From contig CACXWU010000008.1 in the NCBI GenBank assembly GCA_902771535.1, positions 1 to 42,802 on the forward strand: a stretch of DNA of 42,802 nt, written 5' to 3'. The DNA comes from an uncultured Pseudomonadota bacterium (GTDB lineage: Bacteria > Pseudomonadota > Alphaproteobacteria > UBA3830). The position numbers were made by a program, and so were the translations under genes. The notes below the pieces were generated by a model. It made no database searches. It saw only the letters and a program-made list of their open reading frames with translations, and had not been told where the DNA came from. Below are positions 39,479 to 42,328 of the stretch, in pieces (position 1 is the first letter of the stretch; every line of letters begins with the position of its first letter).

Positions 39479-42328
39479 ATGTATATAGATGTTATAGTCC
39501 CAAGTTTCGATGAAAGCGGGGAAAATGTTTTAATTTCAACGTGGTACAAAAAGGTCGGCGATAAGATTTCCAACGGTGAAGTCATTGCGGATGCTGAAAC
39601 TTCAACGATAGCGTGTGGTATAACATCAGGATACGACTGCTTTCTTTCCAAAATAATCGCAAAAGAAGGAGACACCGTCCCACAAGGTTCCAAAATAGCG
39701 GTTATAGAGGTAAATGTCGAACGACCGAGCAGCGAAACAGAAAAGGAAGATCTCCGTGAAACAGTGGGAGAAAAGCTAAAAAATATCAAAGTTTCATTGG
39801 ATACCGAAAAGAAAGCTGAAGAAATCCAAGAAGAGAAATCTACTGAAATTTCTACGCAAGATGAAACGCGTCAAAAAGAAGCCGCGGCAGCCTCTCGCGC
39901 CGAAAGGCGGCAAGCTTTGAGCGATATGGTAAACGGAAAGATAAGCGCAGAAGAAATCGAAAAAAGACTCACTTACCACGAGGCGTCGCAAAATATTGAA
40001 AAAACCGTTCAGGAAAAAATCCAAAAAGAAGAAGGGCAAGATGATTATACACTATCGGTCTCTTCCGATAATGTTTCCGATGATTTAGTTGCTAAAAACA
40101 TTGGAGATGCCATCGACGACGAAAATGATTTCACAGATAAAGATTCAACTTCCGAGGAAGTCTTCGAAAAAGAAGATTTAACCCCGGAACAGGAAAAAAT
40201 TATTGAGGAAGAAAAAAAGGAAGTAATTGAAACTTTCTCAGAACAAGCGGAAAAGAAATTCAAAAGCATTCTCAAAGACGCCGAATCGAAGGTACAGCAA
40301 GAAGCGGACAAACTTCGCGAGAAAATTATTGAAGATGCCAAAGTTTCAGCATTGGCCGAAAGTGAGGTAATGAAGGCCAAAATTCTCAAAGAATATGAAG
40401 ATCGAGCCACGAAAGATGCCGGGGAAATGCACAAAAAAATCGTTCAGGGATCTATTTCCGAGGCGCAAAACACGCGAACAAAACTGATCGAAGAAGCCAA
40501 AGCTGATGCAATCAAGGAAGCTGAGGAGATTAAGGCAAAAATCAAAGAAGAAGCCCAGAAAGAAGCTGAGGAAGAAGCGGCATCCATAGTGCAAAATTCT
40601 GTAATGAATGCCGAAAAGCAAGCGAAAGAAGAGGCTGACAAAATTTCTAAGGAAATCATCGAGGAAGCGATCGATAAATCCAAGGCGGAGGCCAACGAAA
40701 TCAAGAAAGATATTATAAGATCTGCCGGAAGACACGCGAAAAAGGAATCCGAACAGCTGATAAAAGAAGAGCTGAATCAGGCCCGTAAAAAATCGCAGTT
40801 GAAGGCAGAAGAAATCATTTCTTCCGCAATCGTTGAAAGCAAAATATGCGCTGACGAGATAAAGAAAGAAGTTATCGACAAGGCCAAAGCCGGCGTCAAA
40901 GAAGTTATGGACAATATGATGCAATCGATTGTTGCCGGCAGCCAACAAGAAGTTGATCAATCGAAGGATCTTAAGGACAAAATCACCGAAAGCATAAAGG
41001 AAAGTATCGATGAAGTCGTGAATACCAAAAAACAAATCATGGACGAGATAAACCAGAATCGCGAAAACACCATGAAAGAAATGAATGAAAACAAAGATCT
41101 GATGATCGGAGGCATAAGGGACAGCATTTACCAGGCGACCAAGTTGTCGGAAAAAATTAAGGACCAGCTGGACGAAGCCTCTAAGGTCAAAAAAACGCTA
41201 TCGGAAAATATTGATCAAAATCTAAATCTTAAAAACAGGATTCTTGATGAAATAAAGCAACATTACAACAAAATATGCGACGATATTTCAAACCATATGC
41301 GCAAGACCATAGATGAAGTGAAAAACGAGATTTTAGTCAACGCCGATCGAAAAATTCAGGAGGTGCAAAACTCCTGTCAGGTCGATGGTATTACCAGAGA
41401 AATTACCGAGGAAAAAACCTGTTCCGAGCAGAATGAAATAGAGAAAGAGAATGAGCCGGAATTACAGTTGGATCTCCAAACTACAAATACAGATGAAGAG
41501 TCTTCAGAAAAAAAAACAGATGAAAAAGAAGACGAATTTGTGAAAAAATTGCTGAATATCAAGGAAGATGACGGTGGCGCTCCGGGAATGTATGCGGATA
41601 ACTGGAACAAACCGAAAATCTTATATTCTCCAGATGATAAAAGAGAAAACATAGATTTTCTCAAACAAAGAATTTCCGAGAAATTGAAGGATGCTTATGA
41701 TTCTTCAGTAATCGCAACTATATCCAATGAGGTGGATATGTCTGCGATTATATCTCTGGAAAAGGCCTTCGGTGAGGCATTTTCGAAAAAATATAATACT
41801 CGTCTCGGGTTTACTCCTTTCTTTATAATGGCTGCAGTGGAAGCACTGAAGCAGTATAAAGTATTTAACGCCCATGTTCATGAGGATGAGATTATATATA
41901 AAAATCATTTCGATATTTCCGTAATCACTTGCGGGAATGATGGCATTTCCGCTCCGGTAATCCGTGATGCGGACAAACTAAACTTTGCAGAAATCGAAAA
42001 GAAAATGATTACTTTGTCTCGCCGGGCCGTTGAAGGAACTTTATCCCTAGAAGAGGTTTCGAACGGAACTTTCACCGTAGTAAATGCAGGAATGTACGGA
42101 TCTCTCATGGGAACGGATATTCTGACACCTCCGCAAGTCGCAACATTGAGTGTTCACAAAATGCACAACAGACCTGTCGCAACAGATGAGGGCGTCGAAA
42201 TAAAACCAATGTTGTACGTCTCGCTGTCGTATGACCATCGAATTGCTGATACCAAGTTAGCGGCCGAATTTTTGAGTAAAATCAAAAATTGTGTGGAAAA
42301 TCCCGGTTGGCAGCTGTTGGGATTGTGA
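39479..42328 (+). CDS. E2 acyltransferase-like chimera with a long coiled coil
   Basis: The 949-residue protein joins three parts. Residues 1-80 are a lipoyl domain (MYIDVIVPSFDESGENVL, then GDKISNGEVIADAETSTI), but the lysine that carries lipoate (normally in ETDKA) is Thr43 here. Residues about 95-660 are a very charged Ala/Glu/Lys/Ile helix, most likely a long coiled coil. Residues about 700-949 are an E2 (SucB-like) catalytic domain: DISVITCGNDGISAPVIRDAD, NGTFTVVNAGMYGSLMGTDIL, PPQVATLSVHKMHNRPV, SYDHRIADT. Catalytic His920 and Asp924 of the DHRxxDG motif remain; the Gly is Thr925. Standard SucB has about 400 residues. Start at 39479 is preferred as AGG lies 9 bases upstream. A structural role derived from an enzyme is possible. 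Confidence 0.8.
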   Translation: MYIDVIVPSFDESGENVLISTWYKKVGDKISNGEVIADAETSTIACGITSGYDCFLSKIIAKEGDTVPQGSKIAVIEVNVERPSSETEKEDLRETVGEKLKNIKVSLDTEKKAEEIQEEKSTEISTQDETRQKEAAAASRAERRQALSDMVNGKISAEEIEKRLTYHEASQNIEKTVQEKIQKEEGQDDYTLSVSSDNVSDDLVAKNIGDAIDDENDFTDKDSTSEEVFEKEDLTPEQEKIIEEEKKEVIETFSEQAEKKFKSILKDAESKVQQEADKLREKIIEDAKVSALAESEVMKAKILKEYEDRATKDAGEMHKKIVQGSISEAQNTRTKLIEEAKADAIKEAEEIKAKIKEEAQKEAEEEAASIVQNSVMNAEKQAKEEADKISKEIIEEAIDKSKAEANEIKKDIIRSAGRHAKKESEQLIKEELNQARKKSQLKAEEIISSAIVESKICADEIKKEVIDKAKAGVKEVMDNMMQSIVAGSQQEVDQSKDLKDKITESIKESIDEVVNTKKQIMDEINQNRENTMKEMNENKDLMIGGIRDSIYQATKLSEKIKDQLDEASKVKKTLSENIDQNLNLKNRILDEIKQHYNKICDDISNHMRKTIDEVKNEILVNADRKIQEVQNSCQVDGITREITEEKTCSEQNEIEKENEPELQLDLQTTNTDEESSEKKTDEKEDEFVKKLLNIKEDDGGAPGMYADNWNKPKILYSPDDKRENIDFLKQRISEKLKDAYDSSVIATISNEVDMSAIISLEKAFGEAFSKKYNTRLGFTPFFIMAAVEALKQYKVFNAHVHEDEIIYKNHFDISVITCGNDGISAPVIRDADKLNFAEIEKKMITLSRRAVEGTLSLEEVSNGTFTVVNAGMYGSLMGTDILTPPQVATLSVHKMHNRPVATDEGVEIKPMLYVSLSYDHRIADTKLAAEFLSKIKNCVENPGWQLLGL

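Follow-up and report, generated by a model that had tools for sequence, protein, structure and literature searches.

An E2o-derived protein with a long coiled-coil insert and no lipoyl lysine, a probable scaffold in a family of gut Alphaproteobacteria

Results

The window, that is, the whole 42,802-nucleotide stretch of DNA analysed here, contains an open reading frame of 952 aa on the plus strand (39470..42328). Its likely start is the ATG at 39479, as AGGA lies 9 bases upstream and homologues start at the same place, and the gene thus delimited (39479..42328) encodes an E2o-derived fusion protein of 949 aa. Pfam searches matched Biotin_lipoyl to residues 5-76 (E 5e-8) and 2-oxoacid_dh to residues 719-943 (E 2e-57); the order along the protein is a lysine-less lipoyl domain, an insert of about 624 residues and an E2o (SucB) catalytic domain. 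The lipoyl-like head (residues 1-80, 39479..39718) is followed by an acidic, fast-evolving linker that replaces the first linker and the lost PSBD (residues 81-256, 39719..40246), a long helix (residues 257-534, 40247..41080), a second helix (residues 545-634, 41111..41380), a second acidic and variable linker (residues 635-704, 41381..41590) and the E2o core (41591..42325), all on the plus strand. Chance and an assembly artefact or chimera were ruled out, because the same architecture recurs at more than 30 loci in metagenome-assembled genomes (MAGs) from different samples.

The upstream neighbour is uppP, the gene for undecaprenyl-diphosphate phosphatase (38628..39407, plus strand), which was present at 16 of the 25 compared loci and in several genera. 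Apart from uppP the neighbourhood varies (accB-accC-uppP in one genus, def-fmt-uppP in the genus of the window), and no function could be read from it among the loci compared. Ahead of the fused gene, we found a conserved element of about 31 bases, ATTAAC-N2-AAAAGAAA-..-TTTT-..-TTAA (39420..39450, plus strand), which in its full form had a single match in the window. An ATTAA[CT] box was located 50-75 bases ahead of the start in 29 of 35 loci, compared to 0.02 expected per locus. The element is probably the fused gene's own promoter. In several relatives, the pattern ATTAAC..AAAAGAAA(C)..TTTT..TTAA contains the imperfect dyad AAAAGA/TCTTTT, an arrangement reminiscent of an operator placed within the spacer of a promoter.

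Among 41 genomes of the same GTDB family, PF00198 matched in 34; each match was the fused E2-like gene, and these genomes encode no other PF00198 protein. The open frames measured 600-1215 aa, except those truncated by a stop or by the end of a contig. MAGs of rumen, deer, yak and termite-type gut origin contain relatives with this architecture, and one genome of the same genus is recorded as 'Holosporaceae bacterium UBA3830'. In the other families of the order, the E2 is either absent or a normal one of 412-425 aa near a Transket_pyr gene of E1-beta length. The order UBA3830 has been described as a group of uncultured alphaproteobacteria with reduced genomes and an ATP/ADP antiporter, putative endosymbionts of termites and ruminants (PMC11257099); the shared genus suggests that the window belongs to this order. 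The family that carries the fused gene probably consists of endosymbiotic gut alphaproteobacteria. All sequences are MAGs (90% complete in the case of the genome that holds the window), and genome-wide statements rest on targeted searches. Literature searches returned no description of such a protein.

The gene was absent from seven of the 41 genomes, some of them nearly complete (G040, 97%; G032, 95%; G026, 94%). At the syntenic site of another genome, G020 (locus L130, G020:C4:1-7000), accB-accC-uppP stands next to mreB with no trace of the E2-like gene. The gene is therefore dispensable in some lineages. At this site, a short transposase-like ORF and MreB/MreC-like ORFs directly follow accB-accC-uppP.

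We then compared the gene of the window with near relatives. By simple Nei-Gojobori counts, saturated in some comparisons, dN/dS in the head was mostly 0.02-0.07; in informative pairs, those with enough synonymous change, the coil gave 0.04-0.07 and the core 0.04-0.06. These values indicate purifying selection on all three parts. For the two acidic linkers, most comparisons yielded 0.14-0.36. Core identity across the family was 71-98%.

The first-pass annotation of this DNA had described 550-600 residues of charged helix between the two domains. A long helix was indeed predicted: an AlphaFold full-length model of low confidence (pLDDT 54; block pLDDT about 50-80 within the helix) placed one helix at residues 257-534 and another at 545-634, together about 370 nearly continuous residues. 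The insert is not helical throughout, however, and includes both acidic linkers. The spacing of hydrophobic residues follows a period of 3.79 across residues 171-500 (power 32 versus at most 14 in shuffles, reached by none of 1,000) and of about 3.6 over residues 500-640; in the long helix the 3.79 period is strongest up to about residue 500. Nearly all homologues showed a period of 3.77-3.81, though their lengths differ widely. The period results from a module, EAxxIxxxIIxxA, that recurs at intervals of 15 or 19 residues (186 copies versus 8.6 in shuffles; commonest spacings 38, 19, 34 and 15), and in the homologue L018 15-mers of this module stand back to back. The ratios 15/4 and 19/5 imply a strongly right-handed supercoil, and 3.79 lies above 3.63, the hydrophobic periodicity beyond which coiled coils are counted as right-handed. 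Adhesins contain trimeric coils with periods of 3.75-3.8, and the most extreme of the known periods, 3.8 (19/5), is reached locally in the stalk of trimeric YadA (PMC4786415). L018 carries in addition a stretch of about 300 residues rich in Gly, His, Asn and Cys between coil and core (residues ~650-950), which possibly binds metal.

Within the head, Thr43 (39605..39607, plus strand) occupies the lipoyl-lysine position (ETSTIAC versus ETDKVVL), as had been noticed at first pass. Homologues have T, S, M, Q, F or E at this position and never Lys, and the flanking residues (CGITS..DC) are nearly invariant among them. No homologue had an intact lipoyl Lys, and a Lys shifted by a few residues, looked for in all homologues, was found in none. 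The E1/E3-binding domain is lost as well: PSBD (PF02817) gave no match in 15 of 15 members scanned (E<=0.1). Biotinylation of the head was considered and rejected, as there is no AMKM-like site and AccB is a separate protein. Cys46 and Cys54 of the head (window 39614-39640) are invariant in the family, and the normal E2s compared lack Cys at these positions.

The core was closest in the PDB to E. coli and mitochondrial succinyltransferases (E 3e-60 to 1C4T). Structure alignment gave about 42% identity to E. coli SucB 1SCZ (Z 25.2), and the top NCBIfam matches were SucB models, both below their cut-offs (TIGR01347, 307/379 bits; NF004309, 309/449 bits). Active-site residues were counted in 33 intact homologues, the frameshifted L012 being left out, and in 21 normal E2s. 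E. coli E2p Ser551 stabilises the tetrahedral intermediate (PMC8421416); by alignment, its equivalent in E. coli SucB is Thr323, and in the fused protein this position is taken by Val868 (42080..42082, plus strand). We found Val or Ile there in 33 of 33 homologues versus T or S in 21 of 21 normal E2s. Asn338 and Gly380 (E. coli numbering) are each replaced by Thr in all 33. The Leu described as gatekeeper in bovine E2o (PMC9681731) has given way to Ile or Val in 32 of 33; all these positions are invariant (or T/S) in the 21 normal E2s.

The motif SYDHRIADT (42227..42253, plus strand) retains the catalytic pair, His375 and Asp379 in E. coli numbering (His in 33 of 33 homologues, Asp in 32 of 33), and its last residue is the Thr that replaces Gly380. 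DHRIADT instead of DHRxxDG (residues 919-925, 42233-42253) had thus been read correctly at first pass. As a sign of lost catalysis it is the weaker clue, because His and Asp are kept, and the telling change from Thr323 to Val or Ile had gone unnoticed. The retained pair may have a structural role (an Asp salt bridge) or point to a new reaction.

E2 cores are built of trimers connected via a C-terminal H7 knob, which in E2o consists of six residues plus two more, and H2 of E2o comprises 18 residues, with Lys-His at its end (PMC9681731). The fused protein ends with PGWQLLGL (42302..42325, plus strand), a knob of E2o length of the kind that joins trimers in cubic cores. Nearly all homologues share this C terminus as P-x5-[GD]-L, the H7 length of E2o plus two residues, and the E2o-type H2 end is kept in their sequences as KK[H/Y]N. 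Since both knob and H2 socket are conserved, the intertrimer interface appears to be retained, while the active site is not.

We further searched for the genes with which an E2o would operate. No second, normal sucB was detected in the genome of the window, and across the family no E1 or E3 gene scored above cut-off. E1_dh proteins above cut-off were missing from the family genomes, in which Transket_pyr matched essentially one transketolase of about 650 aa each; the transketolase-like E1 candidate of the window's own genome is this transketolase. Lipoamide dehydrogenase (E3) and lipoate synthase LipA exceeded their cut-offs in 0 of 41 family genomes. Weak E3 matches, about 310 and 540 aa long, resembled other flavoproteins, and weak LipA matches (at most 37/310 bits) other radical-SAM proteins. 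The only LplA/LipB-type candidate in the genome of the window turned out to be BirA. Besides the fused gene, PF00364 matched essentially only AccB in the family genomes. Citrate synthase was missing from 39 of the 41; weak citrate-synthase-like ORFs (390-396 aa, 54-68 bits) occurred only in the two others (G000:C7:4583-5446 and G037:C12:38105-39007). The fused gene is therefore not the sole functional E2o of these bacteria: the whole family lacks E1, E3 and lipoate synthesis.

Discussion

We regard the loss of the enzymatic E2o role as near certain. The first-pass annotation had proposed a non-catalytic structural protein, and the lost Thr/Ser, the lost E1/E3-binding domain and the retained intertrimer knob support this proposal. 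The fused gene is probably an exapted SucB, in which the E2o core would serve as an oligomeric scaffold with long coiled-coil arms. An ancestor of the family would have lost its 2-oxoacid dehydrogenase complexes together with lipoate synthesis and kept the E2o subunit for this non-enzymatic purpose. By analogy with other E2 cores, the core would still form trimers and probably a 24-subunit cube. Each trimer vertex would project a right-handed coiled-coil bundle, trimeric by analogy and flexibly tethered to the core; because flexible linkers separate the two, the symmetry of the coil may differ from that of the core. An arm with both helices straight would measure about 55 nm at 0.148 nm per residue. 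At the tips, flexible lipoyl-fold heads would bind something other than E1 and E3, and the particle might serve inside the cell as spacer, tether or organising centre. The picture as a whole, a natural nanoparticle formed by a dead E2o 24-mer cube with up to eight such trimeric arms and lysine-less lipoyl heads, which would serve as intracellular organiser in a family of putative protist endosymbionts, is put forward more tentatively, as an analogy-based possibility to which we give somewhat less than even chances. The main unexplained point is the catalytic His and Asp, which are still invariant or nearly so and which pure scaffolding would not obviously need.

It is this point that a re-tasked CoA-dependent acyltransferase or CoA sensor would address, with a CAT-like fold, a new acceptor and the coil for placement. 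Such a protein would account for His375 and Asp379, a basic residue is found at E. coli position 185 in the first core helix (R/K in 30 of 34), and CAT is a fold relative (2cla, Z 15.5). Against it speaks the family-wide replacement of Thr/Ser by Val/Ile, of the gatekeeper Leu by Ile/Val and of Asn338 and Gly380, and we consider this reading unlikely. Alternatively, the protein might be a coiled-coil filament or tether whose E2 domain merely trimerises and forms no closed cubic particle. The coil is the largest feature of the protein, its period falls in the range of the trimeric adhesin coils, and actinobacterial E2p with a changed H7 knob occurs as free trimers (PMC9681731). In the fused protein, however, the knob of E2o length with its hydrophobic Leu residues and the E2o-type H2 end are both kept, which makes a mere trimer rather improbable.

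The good SucB match and the retained His/Asp pair would suit the E2o of a divergent, operating 2-oxoglutarate dehydrogenase with unusual cofactor attachment, but without lipoyl Lys, PSBD, E1, E3 and LipA, and with the SucB models below their cut-offs, this is largely refuted and scarcely conceivable. A decaying relic of TCA-cycle loss might be suspected, since a few MAG copies (L009, L010, L012) contain stops or frameshifts and seven genomes do not have the gene. The gene is nevertheless no relic, because both globular domains show dN/dS values of mostly 0.02-0.07; the coil falls in the same range in most comparisons, and the core identity and the conserved upstream element point the same way. 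Decay is thus refuted, and we hold it to be very improbable.

Compared to known systems, the fused protein resembles SucB/E2o, the dihydrolipoyllysine succinyltransferase (TIGR01347; PDB 1SCZ, 1E2O, 1C4T), in its N-terminal lipoyl fold, core fold, H2 and H7 knob and His/Asp pair. It differs from it by the absence of the lipoyl Lys, PSBD, Thr323 and E1/E3 partners and by the added insert of ~620 aa. E3BP (protein X), a catalytically dead E2 relative of the eukaryotic PDC, likewise has an E2 fold without E2 catalysis inside an assembly. E3BP still works within PDC, however, whereas the genomes with the fused gene lack any 2-oxoacid dehydrogenase complex. The stalks of YadA-type trimeric autotransporters (15/4, 19/5) share the strongly right-handed periodicity of 3.75-3.8 with the insert, a geometric analogy for which no homology is claimed; unlike YadA, the fused protein is not an outer-membrane adhesin, as its start carries no signal peptide and no anchor domain could be recognised. 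Particles of E2p have been engineered to carry further domains on their outward-facing N termini (PMC4931238), and one of this design, the BG505-E2p 60-mer (PDB 8EQN), is an artificial counterpart of the proposed architecture, although of E2p instead of E2o type.

If the scaffold reading is true, the fused gene would offer a clear example from nature of a 2-oxoacid dehydrogenase E2 turned scaffold outside 2-oxoacid metabolism, with the mutational path from enzyme to scaffold legible in dozens of genomes. The engineering of E2 nanoparticles would thereby gain a precedent from nature, and the insert would provide a long coiled coil close to the upper limit of known right-handed periodicity. The gene would also bear on enzyme reuse by genome-reduced endosymbionts after pathway loss.

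Other features of the window

Three further loci of the window were recorded. On the minus strand, a coiled-coil-like ORF of 511 aa (34437-35972) has an apparent signal peptide at an internal Met (MKKVFSMLFSVIFLSGAFA); it had no Pfam or NCBIfam match and is syntenic in the genus. A fusion of Phage_capsid and Peptidase_S78 (24923-26401), that is, capsid protein and prohead serine protease, marks a prophage or remnant in this reduced genome of ~1 Mb. At 19009-21609 we detected an outer-membrane usher of the chaperone-usher type (PF00577), which is unusual for such a reduced alphaproteobacterium.
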